IMG/VR virus record: IMGVR_UViG_3300007735_000517
Span: 1 to 24,810 of that record
Length of the DNA stretch: 24,810 bases
From: a virus
Strand: one strand, 5' to 3'
Numbering within the stretch: the first letter of the stretch is position 1; each line of letters starts with the position of its first letter. Position numbers and translations under genes: made by a program. Shown here in pieces: positions 9,985 to 19,019 of this stretch. A model generated the notes under the pieces. It was not told where the DNA came from. It did no database searches and worked only from the letters and a program-made list of their open reading frames with translations.

Positions 9985-10293
9985 TTATGTAATAATAGGA
10001 CCTTTACCCACACTAATACCAGTAGTAGTGGTAATATAATGATCCTCTAATGCTTTGAGCGTGATCGAATGCATAATTACATGCTCAGATTTAAGCTCTA
10101 CATTTTTATTTATATCCGCGGAAAACAGGGTCTGTACTAACCCCAGACCCTGATGACTGGGTACCACTGTGCAGGGCTTGTTTAACACCCACTTATTGGC
10201 AGTTGATTCAACGATTTTTGCTACGATTTCATCGCCATTGACCAATTTAAAACAGACTATTTCGCCTGCGCCATATCCATTATTAAACAGCAT
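9985..10293 (-). CDS. Small Sm-like fold protein, 102 aa
   Basis: The stretch IVCFKLVNGDEIVAKIVEST, followed by a second strand-rich half with INKNVELKSEHVIMHSIT, reads as a small Sm/LSm-type beta barrel. Proteins of this kind are known from marine phages. Whether it binds RNA like Hfq or acts as a structural piece is not known. It overlaps the end of the glutaredoxin gene by 11 nt, so it belongs to the nrd operon by position, but directly precedes the virion genes. No typical Hfq RNA-contact motif is obvious. Confidence 0.55.
   Translation of the reverse strand: MLFNNGYGAGEIVCFKLVNGDEIVAKIVESTANKWVLNKPCTVVPSHQGLGLVQTLFSADINKNVELKSEHVIMHSITLKALEDHYITTTTGISVGKGPIIT
10107..10114 (-). promoter_or_regulatory. 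Possible internal late promoter before the virion block
   Basis: A perfect T4-consensus TATAAATA on the minus strand, inside the Sm-like gene and 130 nt before the PAAR start. It sits where an early operon meets virion genes, but such an octamer can arise by chance in AT-rich coding DNA. Confidence 0.35.
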
Positions 10294-10534
10294 TCAATCT
10301 TTCCTTAAGTTGATCTTCAGTGAGTCTGGACAGTCCTTGAAATCCGCCCTCAACAAAAACTTTTCCATCTTTATAAATTTGTGGCACTGTGCGATGGCCT
10401 TCACTGACAATAAATTCTCTAGCTTCGGGCTGTAGGTCTACTCTGATTTCTTCGAATTCGATATTTTTTAATTTTAATAAATTTTTTGCTTGGTCGCAAA
10501 AAGGGCAATTGGCTTTACTATATACTGTTAGCAT
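10283..10534 (-). CDS. Glutaredoxin
   Basis: 83 residues, the standard size of a bacterial Grx3-type glutaredoxin. The active site is CPFC (Cys10, Cys13), the cis-Pro motif is TVPQI (Pro51), and the glutathione-binding GG(F) follows near residue 63. It reduces disulfides using glutathione, and in T4-like phages it delivers electrons to ribonucleotide reductase. It lies downstream of nrdA and nrdB, which fits. The CPFC site is dithiol, so it is not the iron-sulfur monothiol class. A Shine-Dalgarno (GAGGAAA) and a candidate promoter precede it. Confidence 0.9.
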   Translation of the reverse strand: MLTVYSKANCPFCDQAKNLLKLKNIEFEEIRVDLQPEAREFIVSEGHRTVPQIYKDGKVFVEGGFQGLSRLTEDQLKERLNAV

Positions 10535-11579: not shown

Positions 11580-12415
11580 AAAAATTTACTGACCTTTGAA
11601 AGAATGTGGTCGAAATTTATGACTTTCTTAGTGTCCCAGTCTAACTGTAGACTATCTTCTAACTTGGGTATTGCATCGCAGACACAGTTATAGTCAGAAG
11701 TTAAATTATTCAATTCTTCAAGTGTACGATATTGAAATCTACGTTGCTGTACAAGTTCTACTGGGCGTCTTGTCAAAGTCCAGTTGGCCAAATATTCATA
11801 CTCACTGAACCATCTTAATCCATTTTCTATCGGTACATTGTTGATAATAGCATCAAATACGTCACAGCGATTTCTTGCTATCAATGCTTCTTTGAGACTC
11901 AACCAATCCTCTTTGAACGCGGGCATAAACTCAGTCACAAAGCAATGTGGACTTTGTCTTGGTATACCAAGACTGTTTTCAATGACCTTGTAGTAGCCGT
12001 AACTGTGAGTTTCGTTAGGCAGATAAAAAAACTTGGGTTGGCCTAGTTGATTAACGCAGGTATAAGGCACAATGCTGAATGTATCTGGATCCTGAATCAT
12101 GACGCAGTCGGCATCAATGTAATCAATGCTGGCCATTTTTAATGCCTGCTGATAAAGCCAACTGCCCCTGTAATCATCGTCGAACCACCAGTTCTTCATA
12201 GTGGGGTAAAGACTGTTCATCAGATCGTCTGATACGTAAGTAAATTTATCAGTAGCTATGCCGTGATTTCTTAGTATTAAATCTAAGAGTTCACCGTCTA
12301 TGGGACTAAAGACATAGGTTGCGTCTATGTCCTTGAGGTAATGATCGAATTGTAAACTTAGGCAGGCATGACTGATTCTGTAACTGCCCAGAAACAATGC
12401 TCTAACAATTTTCAT
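11576..12415 (-). CDS. Glycosyltransferase-like protein (DUF6492 type), 279 aa
   Basis: A GT-A-like pattern: an N-terminal strand (VRALFLGSYR), then GSWLYQQALKMASIDYIDAD with a DxD-like DADCVMI that usually binds the nucleotide-sugar metal, later SPHCFVTEFMPAF and a helical C-terminus. This fits the DUF6492 family of putative glycosyltransferases as I remember it. The sugar and target are unknown; modification of phage DNA, a virion protein or host surface glycans are all open. The start overlaps the nrdB stop by one base (TAATG) and the stop overlaps the next gene as ATGA. Confidence 0.65.
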   Translation of the reverse strand: MKIVRALFLGSYRISHACLSLQFDHYLKDIDATYVFSPIDGELLDLILRNHGIATDKFTYVSDDLMNSLYPTMKNWWFDDDYRGSWLYQQALKMASIDYIDADCVMIQDPDTFSIVPYTCVNQLGQPKFFYLPNETHSYGYYKVIENSLGIPRQSPHCFVTEFMPAFKEDWLSLKEALIARNRCDVFDAIINNVPIENGLRWFSEYEYLANWTLTRRPVELVQQRRFQYRTLEELNNLTSDYNCVCDAIPKLEDSLQLDWDTKKVINFDHILSKVSKFL

Positions 12416-13524
12416 TACAGCGCAGGCAGTTCGTCATAGTCTAAAGCGTCGCTCATTACACCGATAACATAGTTAGTGCTTTCGTTTTCTTGTAATGCTG
12501 TCTGCTTCTTGCTGGTGTCGCTGTGTTTGTTAAACCACGGAATAGGTGTACTCTTGGGTGCAGGTAACCAGTACTTAATACCAATATCTTTTAGTGCGCC
12601 AACTGCTGTATAGTCAACAAAGTCTTTGAGGATGTTTGCATTCAATCCAATCACAGGACCTTTCTTGAATAGATAGTCAGCCCAGGATTTTTCTTCTGCG
12701 ATAACATCTCTATAAATCTGTAATACTTCTTCTTGGCATTCTTGTGCCGCTTTTGCAAAACGCGGATCTTCTTTAACCACTTGATTGATCAAGAATGCTG
12801 TCCAACCTTTGTGTAGCAGTTCGTCTTGTAGAATCAGACTGATAATGTTACCGTTGCCGATAAAGATTTTATTCTCTACCATAGCAAGTGATGTAGCAAA
12901 CGAAACCATAAAGCGGAATGCTTCAAGTGCATAACTAGCGTGTAGTGCTAGATAAATTGCTTTGATATGGCTTTCTTCTGGACAGTTATTTGGGTCATCA
13001 TCTGTTTCTTTGATGCAGTTAAACTTATGCAAATCATCGTAGTATCGGCCAACACTGGATGCCATGTCCACTATTTCTTGTGTGTCGTGAATAGTGTTGA
13101 AAACTTCCTTGGGTACATTGTAGATGTTGCGAATGATATGGCTATAGCTACGACTGTGAATATTAGTTTCAAAGAATGTCCAGTTGTAGACCAGTGCTTC
13201 TAGTTCCGGTAGGCTTACGACCGGAGTAAAGATTTGACTTGGGCCGCGACCCTGCAAGCTGTCAAGAGCAGTTTGCCTAAGCAGGTTACTAGTGAAGATA
13301 TGTTTAACTGCATCGCTGGCTTCCTTGAAATCTTGACTGTCTTTGGTCAAGCTGATCTCTTCTGGCACCCAGAAGAAACCACGTGCAGTTTTTTCAAAAT
13401 CTGCAATCTTGTTATACTTAACTTCTTCAAAACGTTGGATGGTAACTGGACCAGCTGGATCCAAAAACATTTTGCGTGATAGATAGTCTGTCTTTGTATT
13501 TAAATTGTATTGTTGTCGGCTCAT
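12415..13524 (-). CDS. nrdB: Class Ia ribonucleotide reductase small subunit
   Basis: 369 residues, normal for NrdB. It carries the di-iron centre and tyrosyl radical needed by NrdA. By alignment from memory with E. coli, the iron ligands are Asp88 (LDSLQGRGP), Glu119 and His123 (FFETNIHSRSY), Glu201 (ALEAFRF), Glu235 and His238 (DELLH), and the radical Tyr is Tyr127. The C-terminal tail (DALDYDELPAL) is of the type that docks on NrdA. One oddity: Glu119 and His123 are separated by three residues, while the canonical spacing is two. The gene overlaps the upstream desaturase by ATGA and the downstream glycosyltransferase by one base. Confidence 0.95.
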   Translation of the reverse strand: MSRQQYNLNTKTDYLSRKMFLDPAGPVTIQRFEEVKYNKIADFEKTARGFFWVPEEISLTKDSQDFKEASDAVKHIFTSNLLRQTALDSLQGRGPSQIFTPVVSLPELEALVYNWTFFETNIHSRSYSHIIRNIYNVPKEVFNTIHDTQEIVDMASSVGRYYDDLHKFNCIKETDDDPNNCPEESHIKAIYLALHASYALEAFRFMVSFATSLAMVENKIFIGNGNIISLILQDELLHKGWTAFLINQVVKEDPRFAKAAQECQEEVLQIYRDVIAEEKSWADYLFKKGPVIGLNANILKDFVDYTAVGALKDIGIKYWLPAPKSTPIPWFNKHSDTSKKQTALQENESTNYVIGVMSDALDYDELPAL

Positions 13525-14252
13525 TTTTGTTCTTTCTTAATTTGTAACAGCCCTAGGTAGCATAGTATTTTAGCATAAACATATCCTAAGTCAAATTCAA
13601 ACCAGTATCTGCTGAATTTTGGTTCCTTGGGATAATTATGATGATTATTATGTAGTTCTTCTCCGGCTAGCAAGATACCCAATGGAAAAAGATTTTTGGA
13701 CTTATCAGTGGGATGTCTATGACCTGCATAGCTGAATCCATATTTATGATTAGCATAGTTTCCTAAAAACACTGCTAACCAATCTTTTGTCAAATAGCGC
13801 ATCAGTATAGATAGTGCAAGTCCAATGACTCCAAACAATGTTAATGCCACTAGATGCAAAAACCAAGGTCCATACTTGGCATATTTTTCGTGCATATTTC
13901 TCTGCATCCAGTCGTTGGGTGTACTGACTTCAGGGCAATATTTTTTTGCATCCTCTGGATCAACTTTCCACTGAGTACACATTTCACGTAGACTCATACT
14001 GTAAGGACTGTGAGGATCTTCCTCACCGTCACTGGTAGCGTGATGTTTTCTATGGCGTCCGGCATAAGTTTCAGCCCAACGTGGTCCTAGTTGGCCACCG
14101 GTCCATAGAATAAATCTAAACACATATTCCAAAGGTTTAGAAACTACAAAAAGTCCGTGACCAATGGTTCTATGTATGTAAATGGTGTGTACGGCTAGCT
14201 TAATATGCAAAACCAATAGATAAAAGGCGAAAAACCAGTACCAATCAAACAT
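13521..14252 (-). CDS. Membrane fatty-acid desaturase
   Basis: About 243 residues. Three His boxes of the acyl-CoA/acyl-lipid delta-9 class are intact: HRTIGH (27-32), HRKHH (67-71) and HNNHH (about 201-205), together binding a di-iron site. GRHRKHHATSDGEEDPHSP is typical of the class. Hydrophobic segments surround the boxes (about 3-22, 45-52, 125-150), as expected for an integral membrane enzyme. It would introduce a cis double bond into membrane fatty acids using O2 and host electron carriers. I prefer the ATG at 14252: a GGAG lies 6 nt before it, but only 3 nt before the in-frame GTG at 14255. It sits between nrdA and nrdB and overlaps nrdB by ATGA. Confidence 0.88.
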   Translation of the reverse strand: MFDWYWFFAFYLLVLHIKLAVHTIYIHRTIGHGLFVVSKPLEYVFRFILWTGGQLGPRWAETYAGRHRKHHATSDGEEDPHSPYSMSLREMCTQWKVDPEDAKKYCPEVSTPNDWMQRNMHEKYAKYGPWFLHLVALTLFGVIGLALSILMRYLTKDWLAVFLGNYANHKYGFSYAGHRHPTDKSKNLFPLGILLAGEELHNNHHNYPKEPKFSRYWFEFDLGYVYAKILCYLGLLQIKKEQK

Positions 14253-14264
14253 CACTGGCTCCGA

Positions 14265-16583
14265 TTATAGCTTACAAGATTCGCAGTCTTCGACGTCGTC
14301 GTAGTCAATGACTTCCAAAGGTACGTCTACTTCTTCCTGTTGCTTGCTACCTTGTTTGTTAATTAAACTATAGTAGAAAGTCTTGATGCCCCAAATTTGG
14401 CTTTGCATTAGATTTTTAGCAATCAGTGTAGTAGGAACTTTACGGCTTTCAAAGTGCGCAGGATTATAGAACGTATTTGTGCTGATACTTTGATCCACAT
14501 AGGCCTGCAATACCGCCGCTGTTTTTAAGTAGCCGTCGCAGTCACGTTGATCCCACATCAATTGATACTTGTTTTTTAATTTGTGATACTCTGGTACCAC
14601 TTGCACAAACGACCCGGCCTTGCTTTCTTTGACAGTAATCAAACTCATAGGCATTTCAATACCGTTAGTTGAATTGATTACTACGCTACTAGATTCCACA
14701 GGAGCAACGGCCATCAGTGTGGCATTTCGAACACCATAGGCTCGCATTTCTGCACGTAGGCCTTCCCAGTTTAATTCAGGTGTAAAATCAGTGAGCGTGT
14801 TGACTCCGGCGCTACGTCTTTCCCAGGGAAAGATACCCTTACCGTACCAAGTGTGATTACTATCTTTGCAACGGCCTCTCTCCTTAGCAAGTTCCACTGT
14901 TGCTTCGGTAAGATAGAAGGCTTGGTGTTCCATCCAAGACTTGACTTCCTGTAGTGCGTCCTTCTCTCCATACTTGATACCACGTTTGGCATGCCAGTAG
15001 GCTAAGTTGGTAACACCAATACCTAGTGGTTGAATTTCGTCATTGCTTAGTTTGCTCTGTATGCTTAGGAAGTCTTGATAATCAAGAATATTACATAGAG
15101 AACGCTGAAGTATGCGGCAAGCACGACGCATATCTTCTGGATTCCTGAAAGCTCCCCAGTTGATACTACCAAGTGTACACAAAGCAATGCGGCCAGTATC
15201 GTCATCGAGACGCTTAAAAGGTCGAGTAGGAAGAAGAATTTCACAGCAAAGGTTACTCTGATAAATGGTGTGATACTCGGGGTCAAACGGACCTTGATTC
15301 ATCACGTTGTCAATGAAAACTAGATAAATGCGACCAGTGTCTGTTCGCTCCTTGAGTATACCTGACTTGAAGACTTCTTCAGCAGACATAGTTTTTGTCC
15401 GGAGGTCAGTTCTAGCTTCATATCGTATATAAAGTTCTTCAAATAGCTTAGTGTCTTTGTAGAAGGCCTCGTATAGATCCGGTACTTGGTTAGGGTCAAA
15501 AAACGTGATATTTTCTTTGTTTCTAAATCGACGCCAGAAAAAAGCAGAAAGCACCACCCCATAGTCCATGTGTCGAACACGGGTTTCTTCGGTTCCTTGA
15601 TTGTTCTTGAGCACAATGAGATCATCGAATTGATGATGCCAGATGGGATAAAAAACAGTGGCACTTGCATTACGAATACCTCCTTGACTGCAACTACGTA
15701 AATCACCAAACCATTTCTTTAAAAAAGGTATCATGCCAGTGTGCATGATTTCGCCACCACGTATGGGCGATCCTAGTGGTCGTAAACGTCCAATCTCCAA
15801 GCCAATGCCAGCACGTTTGCTGGCATACTTGGCCATCATTTCTCCTGACGCAAAAATACTATCAAGGTCGTCATCACTGCGAATAAGAACGCAACTCGAA
15901 AATTGCTTAGTAGGAGTGCCCAGGCCAGCCAGAACGGGAGTAGCCAAAGTAAAAAGACCATCGCTTGCCGCATTGTAGTACTCCTTAATGTATCGCATAC
16001 GTGCCGTGTTAGGCTCTTCTTTGTGAAACACTGTTGCGGCAGCTATCATATAGCGGACCTGCGGTGTTTCATAAATTTCTTTAGTGGCGCGATTTCGCAC
16101 TAGATATTTTTCAATTAACTGTTCTATGGCCGCATAACTGTACTGTTCGTCTTTACTGTGGTCCAGCATGTCATTCATGCGGTTCCAATCATCTTCCGAG
16201 TACCATTCTAATAGTTCAGGAGTATATAAACCAGTGGCAACATTTTTCTTTACTATTTCATAAAGGTGAGGTGGTTCATAGTTGCCATAGACGTCTTTGC
16301 GTAGCATACTCAGTCGTTGCTTACCTGCCACGTACTGATAATTGACGTGACCAACATCGGGATTATTTTCAACGTCAATTAAATCTACTATGGCTCGTAG
16401 TGTAATCTCGTCGATTTCTCTGGTAGTCATACCGTTATAAAAATGCGGTTGACTTTTTATTTCAATCATACTCTGACTTACGTCAGCCGTTCCGTTGCAG
16501 ACCTTTGTGATCTGGGCTTGCCATTTTTCAATTGTTAGGGGTTCTTTTTTGCCGTTGCGTTTGATTACTTGAATTGCTGTCAT
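14265..16583 (-). CDS. nrdA: Class Ia ribonucleotide reductase large subunit
   Basis: 772 residues, close to the 761 of E. coli NrdA. It reduces ribonucleoside diphosphates for phage DNA synthesis. The N-terminal part (VIKRNGKKEPLTIEK to about residue 95) is an ATP-cone regulatory domain. Catalytic residues are in place: Cys231 (QFSSCVLI), Asn444, Cys446 and Glu448 (SNLCCEI), Cys469 (IALCTLGSIN), the Tyr pair in IKTFYYSLIN, and the C-terminal redox CESC (767, 770). Cys447 beside the radical Cys446 is unusual (Leu in E. coli). It is followed by the desaturase after 12 nt; no strong promoter is visible just upstream. Confidence 0.96.
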   Translation of the reverse strand: MTAIQVIKRNGKKEPLTIEKWQAQITKVCNGTADVSQSMIEIKSQPHFYNGMTTREIDEITLRAIVDLIDVENNPDVGHVNYQYVAGKQRLSMLRKDVYGNYEPPHLYEIVKKNVATGLYTPELLEWYSEDDWNRMNDMLDHSKDEQYSYAAIEQLIEKYLVRNRATKEIYETPQVRYMIAAATVFHKEEPNTARMRYIKEYYNAASDGLFTLATPVLAGLGTPTKQFSSCVLIRSDDDLDSIFASGEMMAKYASKRAGIGLEIGRLRPLGSPIRGGEIMHTGMIPFLKKWFGDLRSCSQGGIRNASATVFYPIWHHQFDDLIVLKNNQGTEETRVRHMDYGVVLSAFFWRRFRNKENITFFDPNQVPDLYEAFYKDTKLFEELYIRYEARTDLRTKTMSAEEVFKSGILKERTDTGRIYLVFIDNVMNQGPFDPEYHTIYQSNLCCEILLPTRPFKRLDDDTGRIALCTLGSINWGAFRNPEDMRRACRILQRSLCNILDYQDFLSIQSKLSNDEIQPLGIGVTNLAYWHAKRGIKYGEKDALQEVKSWMEHQAFYLTEATVELAKERGRCKDSNHTWYGKGIFPWERRSAGVNTLTDFTPELNWEGLRAEMRAYGVRNATLMAVAPVESSSVVINSTNGIEMPMSLITVKESKAGSFVQVVPEYHKLKNKYQLMWDQRDCDGYLKTAAVLQAYVDQSISTNTFYNPAHFESRKVPTTLIAKNLMQSQIWGIKTFYYSLINKQGSKQQEEVDVPLEVIDYDDVEDCESCKL

Positions 16584-17622: not shown

Positions 17623-18329
17623 TTACTTAGGTAGTATAGCTCCACACGTTTAGTCCATTCATCTGTCCAATGATCAAATTCTTCGCCCGAGACTTCAAAC
17701 TCTAGGTATTCGGGCTTAGAATAACTGTTATCTTCCAATAATTTGGGTTGCACTGCCATAAGAATAACACCGTCCCTTATGTCTGTGCCATAGGTATGAT
17801 TATGTGCCTGTGCATAGGCTGCTAACTGTAAAAAATAATCTTCAATCCACTCGCGCTTTTTGGGTTTGTTACTTTGCTTAAAATCTAAGATTGCTGGGCG
17901 GCCTTTCCAAAGCCCAATACAGTCAGTGGTTCCAGCATACAAACCACTGTAGTACAGTGGCACTTCACTGCCCCAAAACTCATCTACATGTGTTAAACCT
18001 TGTAGGATTACTTCAGCGGCCATGAACCAACTGGGATGTGCGAACGTATTACTGGGCAAAGGTTTCATGTCTCTACTCATTATATAATGCTCTAAATAGG
18101 CATGCATACGTGTGCCTCTATTTGCGGCCTCAGTAGTGATCTGTTGCGCCCGTTGTTCGCCCACCGACTTACGCCAATTAGCCAGTGCTTGTCGTTTTTC
18201 CTGCGGTTTAGTGTTGTCTAATATAGTTGTTACGCTGGGCACTTTTGTACCGTCGGGTAAACAGTAGTGACGTTTTCCATCCACTGATTCCCTGCTCAGC
18301 GGAGTATAATTATAAGGGGGATTAATCAT
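17619..18329 (-). CDS. PD-(D/E)XK family exonuclease
   Basis: 236 residues. The core motif is GTTDCIGLWKGRPAILDFKQ: Asp in GTTD, then Asp and Lys in LDFK, followed by QLAAYA, whose Gln is typical of the RecB/Cas4/lambda-exonuclease-like group. The upstream helix AANRGTRMHAYLEHYI supplies the conserved Glu/His region. Relatives in cyanophages and pelagiphages are annotated as exonuclease, probably for recombination or host DNA breakdown. Only two Cys are present, so it lacks the four-Cys iron-sulfur cluster of Cas4/AddB types. The start overlaps the iscA stop by one base (TAATG), a clear operon link. Confidence 0.8.
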   Translation of the reverse strand: MINPPYNYTPLSRESVDGKRHYCLPDGTKVPSVTTILDNTKPQEKRQALANWRKSVGEQRAQQITTEAANRGTRMHAYLEHYIMSRDMKPLPSNTFAHPSWFMAAEVILQGLTHVDEFWGSEVPLYYSGLYAGTTDCIGLWKGRPAILDFKQSNKPKKREWIEDYFLQLAAYAQAHNHTYGTDIRDGVILMAVQPKLLEDNSYSKPEYLEFEVSGEEFDHWTDEWTKRVELYYLSN

Positions 18330-18652
18330 TAAATTCTAAAACTTTCTCCGCAACCACAACGGTCACGTTCATTGGGATTTCGAAACTCAAATCCTTCGTT
18401 GAGACCCTGTCTTACATAGTCTATTGTAAGCCCACGAAGGTATACATCATCCTTGGCTCCGACCAGTACAACAAAGCCTTCCTGTGCATAGTTTGTTACA
18501 CCAACTTCAGATATGTATTCTTTGACATATTCTAACACATAAGCAAGTCCACTACAACCCGTGGTTTTAACGCCCAGTCGAATTCCAGCATAGCCTTTAG
18601 CAGTGATTAATTTAATTATTTTATTTCGTGCGGTATCAGTGAACGAGATCAT
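18329..18652 (-). CDS. iscA: IscA/ErpA-type iron-sulfur carrier protein
   Basis: 107 residues, the standard A-type carrier size. The three family cysteines are present: Cys33 (TTGCSGLAY) and Cys99 and Cys101 (CGCGESF). These proteins receive iron-sulfur clusters, or iron, and hand them to apo-proteins. The gene overlaps the end of iscU by 17 nt, so the pair is translated together, as in bacterial isc operons. I call it IscA by similarity and context; ErpA or HesB would be equally fair labels. Confidence 0.9.
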   Translation of the reverse strand: MISFTDTARNKIIKLITAKGYAGIRLGVKTTGCSGLAYVLEYVKEYISEVGVTNYAQEGFVVLVGAKDDVYLRGLTIDYVRQGLNEGFEFRNPNERDRCGCGESFRI

Positions 18653-19019
18653 GCTTTTTGCGATAGTCTTCTACAGCCGCTTTGATCGCATCTTCCGCAA
18701 GTATTGAACAGTGAATTTTAACAGGGGGGAGGGCAAGTTCATCAGCAATCTCGCTATTTTTGATTTTTTCCGCCTCGTCAAGTGTTCGTCCTTTAACCCA
18801 CTCAGTAACAAGCGAACTGCTTGCAATCGCTGAGCCGCAGCCATAAGTTTTAAATCTTGCATCTGTGATTACTCCGTCTTTTACTTTTATTTGCAACTTC
18901 ATCACATCACCACAAGCAGGTGCTCCTACCATGCCAGTACCAATTGAATCATCAATATCAAATTTACCCACGTTTCTTGGATTCTCGTAGTGATCCACAA
19001 CCTTGTCCGAATAGGCCAT
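18636..19019 (-). CDS. iscU: IscU iron-sulfur cluster scaffold
   Basis: 127 residues, normal length. The scaffold on which IscS sulfur and iron form a 2Fe-2S cluster. Ligands are Cys36 (APACGD, with Asp38), Cys61 (YGCGSAIASSS), His103 and Cys104 (KIHCSILAEDAIKA). The LPPVK motif (97-101), which binds the HscA chaperone, is intact. By eye it is very close to proteobacterial IscU (E. coli type) over its whole length, which points to fairly recent capture from a host with an ISC system. No IscS, HscA, HscB or ferredoxin is in the window. A good AAGGAG site and a sigma70-type promoter precede it. Confidence 0.95.
   Translation of the reverse strand: MAYSDKVVDHYENPRNVGKFDIDDSIGTGMVGAPACGDVMKLQIKVKDGVITDARFKTYGCGSAIASSSLVTEWVKGRTLDEAEKIKNSEIADELALPPVKIHCSILAEDAIKAAVEDYRKKHDLVH

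Follow-up and report, generated by a model that had tools for sequence, protein, structure and literature searches.

The window, by which we mean the whole 24,810-base virus record analysed here, encodes a 369-residue ribonucleotide reductase (RNR) radical-generating subunit, NrdB, in which an earlier note on this DNA had claimed one residue too many between the Glu and His metal ligands of the first motif. In class I RNR the EXXH pair is described as belonging to the signature of the metal site (PMC8463856). This locus raises the question of whether the extra residue is real, where it arose, and whether a protein built in this way still works as a class Ia R2.

An extra residue between two metal ligands

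Bases 13173-13144 of the minus strand encode FETNIHSRSY (TTT GAA ACT AAT ATT CAC AGT CGT AGC TAT), which is the region that the earlier note gave as 13150-13180, although those ends were a few bases off and missed the Tyr codon. Comparison with solved structures using phmmer opened a one-residue gap exactly here (FFETNIHSRSY in the window and FSET-IHSRSY in E. coli), and residue counts likewise bore out the claim: D88 to E119 spans 31 residues and H123 to Y127 spans four, both as in E. coli, and E-H alone differs, at four versus three. The D-E, E-H and H-Y spacings were (31,4,4) in 164/164 sequences of the window's clade, a count that contains a few contigs fetched twice, and (31,3,4) in 104/104 standard phage and 30/30 measured cellular class Ia sequences, so that the insertion defines a phage clade, as the earlier note had proposed an alignment might show. 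Positions of the features are collected in Table 1.

Table 1. Features of the nrdA-nrdB region and of the window NrdB; E. coli equivalents are in brackets.
Feature	Position	Strand	Basis
nrdA, class Ia catalytic subunit, 772 aa, ATP-cone	14265..16583	-	Pfam PF02867, PF00317, PF03477
Fatty-acid-desaturase-like gene between nrdA and nrdB	13521-14255	-	
nrdB, class Ia ribonucleotide reductase radical-generating (R2/beta) subunit	12415..13524	-	Pfam PF00268, NCBIfam NF006576, E. coli R2
Glutaredoxin, downstream of nrdB	10283..10534	-	Pfam PF00462
W52 (W48), radical-transfer residue, kept	13369..13371	-	alignment count
D88 (D84), ligand, 31 residues ahead of E119 as usual	13261..13263	-	spacing count
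E119-T-N-I-H123, Glu and His metal ligands, three residues between (E. coli: two)	13156..13170	-	sequence, alignments, spacing counts
E119 codon	13170-13168	-	
T120-N121 codons, one of them the extra residue	13162..13167	-	
H123 codon	13158-13156	-	
Y127 (Y122), radical Tyr, H+4 as usual	13144..13146	-	spacing count
E201 (E204), ligand	12922..12924	-	invariant in alignment A3
M206 (at Y209 position)	12907..12909	-	Met 164/164 clade, Tyr in all others
Q233 (at R236 position)	12826..12828	-	Gln 164/164 clade, Arg in all others
D234 (D237), radical-transfer residue, kept	12823..12825	-	alignment count
E235-L-L-H238 (E238, H241), second E-x-x-H, normal spacing	12811..12822	-	alignment
Y352 (Y356), radical-transfer residue, kept	12469..12471	-	alignment count

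At T120-N121, members of the window's clade have TN, TS or GN, and a second group, the RaK2-like clade, has GA or GS. Across all insertion sequences Glu occupies H-4 in 172/172, with Thr, Gly or, once, Glu at H-3, and because H-4 is invariant while H-3 varies it must be the Glu at H-4 that serves as ligand. These comparisons confirm, at the level of sequence, that the extra residue is real and that its place is after the bridging Glu and before the site-1 His. We found no report of an extra residue at this place in the literature, in a search outside which subscription papers mostly fell, and no biochemistry for any insertion-bearing NrdB.

Class assignment of the window NrdB

The window NrdB matches PF00268 (Ribonuc_red_sm) at E=2e-42, its top PDB match both by sequence and by fold is E. 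coli R2, and this Pfam match and the E. coli R2-like predicted fold place it within the R2 ferritin-like fold. All six ligands (D, E, H, E, E, H) are present, and invariant in the 164 clade members; the radical Tyr lies at His+4 with the F208/F212/I234 pocket around it, and the radical-transfer residues W48, D237 and Y356 all have their equivalents. More broadly, sequence comparison found the equivalents of W111, D84, E204, E238, H241, Y122, F208, F212, I234, W48 and D237 to be invariant, with that of Y356 aligned in all but one sequence, and the earlier note was right that the rest of the site and the radical Tyr look normal. With Tyr and six ligands kept, the protein belongs neither to class Ic, where the radical Tyr is replaced, nor to class Ie, where metal ligands are lost. 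Class Id R2 proteins are recognised by a conserved Lys near the metals in an unwound core helix 1.

Departures from the class Ia pattern concern spacing and profile score. The D...EXXH...E...EXXH signature is broken in the window NrdB, where the first motif is EXXXH and the second a normal EXXH, and the best NCBIfam model, NF006576 for class Ia beta, scores 301.5 bits, below its cut-off of 346; RaK2-type NrdB passes this model with 518 bits. With its spacing signature broken, the window NrdB is, as far as its motifs tell, a variant and not a typical class Ia R2 member, and it most likely works like a class Ia R2 even though it departs from EXXH spacing and scores under the class Ia cut-off of NCBIfam.

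The NrdA partner and gene neighbourhood

The class Ia NrdA encoded in the window has a complete active site, keeping C225, N437, C439, E441, C462, Y730 and Y731, together with the interface residues N322, R411 and E623. Its C-terminal tail carries C-E-S-C, a CxxC arrangement also seen in phages X1 and Moby, versus C-x4-C in E. coli. The window glutaredoxin is likely the reductant of this NrdA, and most relatives also have a glutaredoxin-like gene downstream of nrdB.

Across the window's clade the interval between nrdA and nrdB is a variable cargo slot, with 74 measured gaps of -1 to 2104 bp (contigs L002-L081). Among the genes that it carries are 20 class II aldolase-like, 8 IscU-like, 7 IscA-like, 7 Fe/Mn superoxide dismutase-like, 2 isocitrate lyase-like and 2 FAD oxidoreductase-like ones. 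Elsewhere in the window, at 18329-19019, are mutually overlapping IscA-like (PF01521) and IscU-like (NifU_N, PF01592) genes, and a possible role for such phage genes is iron-sulphur supply in infection.

Distribution among phages

An NrdB match is present in 4,838 phage records. Searching viral contigs with the window protein gave 80 relatives of 85-94% identity, and ETNIHS(R/K)SY was found in 81/81 close sequences, the window included. A search from Stenotrophomonas phage Moby added 80 more, with ETNIH, ETSIH or ETNLH. Cultured members of the clade are Xanthomonas phage X1 (ETNLHSNSY) and Moby itself (ETNLHSTSY), and about 12 other Stenotrophomonas phage records, known by score alone, score like these two. 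The X1 and Moby/Mendera-type proteins share the insertion, Y209M and R236Q with the window NrdB at 54-63% identity, and differ from it in having Leu in place of Ile before the His and Asn or Thr in place of Arg after HS. A three-base sequencing or assembly error, which the earlier note had itself raised, or chance, is ruled out by these 164 relatives, which come from many metagenomes and include the cultured phages X1 and Moby; we found nothing in support of such an error, which can be taken as already refuted.

The same one-residue insertion in the identical place, as EGAIH or EGSIH, occurs in NrdB of RaK2-like jumbo phages (RaK2, 121Q, GAP32, Munch, BF). These proteins are ~45% identical to the window NrdB and differ from it in lying on a separate tree branch and in having E. 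coli-like Y209 and R236. Several NrdBs of the insertion clade are also encoded on phage contigs of very large size, among them contigs of 561,116 (L197), 360,683 (L159) and 251,693 (L053) bases. One further sequence (L209, 492-1550) reads E-E-N-I-H, combining the insertion with another Glu, placed at the usual H-3; this makes it a less than clean case, and it is perhaps an intermediate form.

Separate gains of the insertion

In the trees, RaK2-like NrdBs branch among standard E-T-I-H sequences, and forcing the window and RaK2 clades into one group lost 20 log units (AU p=0.04). This result and well-supported branches, which force at least 2-3 changes of state, led us to reject a single origin of all insertions; on this phylogeny the insertion is one that was gained separately, at least twice, in phages. 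A 239-kb phage contig (L201, EGSIH) was sister to the window's clade in one tree, with weak support, and lay elsewhere in another, and may represent a third gain, its placement being unstable. The stem branch of the window's clade is long, at 1.4-1.5 changes per site.

We also scanned 84,980 cellular genomes using a motif pattern (W-x-F-x-E followed by a small residue, with His at three-residue spacing) that could miss other contexts, and obtained one match (L188), a chance match antisense to a MiaB-like gene. Furthermore, of the cellular NrdBs in 398 Pseudomonadota genomes, the 30 closest had E-T-I-H in 30/30, and on these two results a cellular origin was rejected. One viral scan gave no match.

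Substitutions particular to the window's clade

Compared with class Ia R2 of E. coli (NrdB; PDB 1mxr, 1xik, 5ci4), to which it is ~38% identical, the window NrdB has a like fold, ligand set, radical Tyr, radical-transfer residues and C-terminal tail with its Tyr. Its clade differs in the one residue added between Glu and His in helix 2 and in the changes of Y209 to Met, A235 to Leu and R236 to Gln, Leu at A235 being present in 164/164 clade sequences and Ala being usual in the others. The changes at Y209 and R236, like the separate gain in a second phage lineage, go beyond what the earlier note had described. On the trees, Y209M, A235L and R236Q share one stem branch, so they do not count as separate lines of evidence for coupling. 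Nor does an insertion by itself require Y209 and R236 to change, because the RaK2-like clade has the insertion without these three changes and keeps Y209 and R236. In E. coli RNR, R236 and D237 help to keep the water network for proton-coupled radical transfer (PCET) in place (PMC11482829); R236Q loses an Arg that every comparison sequence has, and the radical-transfer step could differ.

Predicted structure and proposed working

AlphaFold2 predicted an unbroken helix at residues 106-134 in the window NrdB and 101-129 in the RaK2 type, in metal-free models with local pLDDT of 91-96. The models superposed on E. coli R2 with TM of 0.84-0.92 (~2.0 and 1.2 angstrom over ~340 columns), and because they match it so closely, the second half of the helix would not be grossly displaced. 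Since both flanks keep register, the extra residue is taken up inside core helix 2. The predicted helix, with one extra residue inside it and flanks in register, has the form of a pi-helix insertion, and a pi-bulge is most simply how we infer that core helix 2 absorbs the residue; the earlier note's expectation of a helix bulge gains support as the simplest fit to the unchanged D-E (31) and H-Y (4) distances.

Precedents for a distorted metal-site helix exist in other R2 proteins. In class Ib NrdF, a pi- and 3-10-helical distortion adjoining a metal ligand is attributed to an insertion, but it lies in another helix (E, with one ligand) rather than between the paired ligands of a single motif (PMC6754363). 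Class Id NrdB likewise has a distorted metal-site helix, but there it is core helix 1 that is unwound, with a Mn cofactor and without a tyrosyl radical (PMC8463856). Our literature search found no precedent for a helix distorted between the Glu and His ligands within an EXXH motif.

Our preferred reading, to which we give a probability of about 0.68, is that of a functional class Ia R2 with a pi-bulge in helix 2, its Fe2-tyrosyl centre kept and site 1 locally reshaped. With one residue inserted in core helix 2 after the bridging Glu (E115 in E. coli) and ahead of the site-1 His (H118), T120 or N121 would loop out as a local pi-bulge, leaving both ligands and the radical Tyr in register with the four-helix bundle. 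NrdB would then bind a two-metal centre (Fe2 being the most likely), activate O2 and form a tyrosyl radical at Y127, which would pass through W52/D234/Y352 to the residues of the phage NrdA that correspond to Y730/Y731/C439. On its site-1 side the cluster would be reshaped by the bulge, which in the window's clade is accompanied by Y209M and R236Q. The Fe2-Tyr cofactor and any effect on kinetics or stability are likewise what we infer.

Alternative readings

The altered metal choice or radical chemistry that the earlier note had envisaged is possible and so far unsupported, as the ligands, Tyr, hydrophobic pocket and NrdA active site are all intact. In its fuller form this reading would have the bulge, Y209M and R236Q together shift the site from Fe2-Tyr to, for example, Mn/Fe or Mn2, or to a radical assembled in another way, and so create a new R2 subclass. 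Known class I subclasses do differ by metal and second-sphere residues, core helix 1 is distorted in class Id (PMC8463856), and the long stem and the changes that the whole clade shares at Y209, A235 and R236 would fit such a shift; against these stand the complete ligand set with its Tyr and F208/F212/I234 pocket, the RaK2-like clade with its insertion and intact Y209 and R236, and the lack of a recognised NrdI-type flavoprotein gene among the selected window proteins scanned, and we consider the reading quite unlikely. We hold it distinctly unlikely that EXXXH, Met209 and Gln236 mark a phage-only R2 subclass whose cofactor or radical-transfer step is unlike Fe2-Tyr in kind.

A bulge that is simply tolerated, functionally silent and fixed through drift in a few phage lineages would agree with the complete ligand and pathway set and with the unchanged predicted fold. 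However, the absence of loss in 164 divergent members, at least two gains at one spot and no cellular sequence exceed what free tolerance would give, and we regard a neutral quirk as doubtful. It is very improbable that E119 is not a ligand and that T120, or no residue, replaces it at the normal i/i+3 spacing. The E-E-N-I-H sequence does offer a Glu at H-3, but all other insertion sequences have Thr or Gly there, so that the carboxylate would be lost; the D-E and W-E spacings are unchanged, and no other Glu of the window protein is placed to give the normal spacing that the earlier note had asked about. With H-4 Glu invariant and H-3 variable, this alternative ligand register was rejected.

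Meaning for class I RNR

An abundant phage clade and a separate phage lineage break the EXXH spacing with every ligand kept. As natural variants, they bear on the role that helix geometry between the bridging Glu and site-1 His has in O2 activation and radical stability, and Gln at R236 is likewise a natural variant for the weight of this Arg in radical transfer. They also call for caution in pattern-based annotation that requires EXXH.
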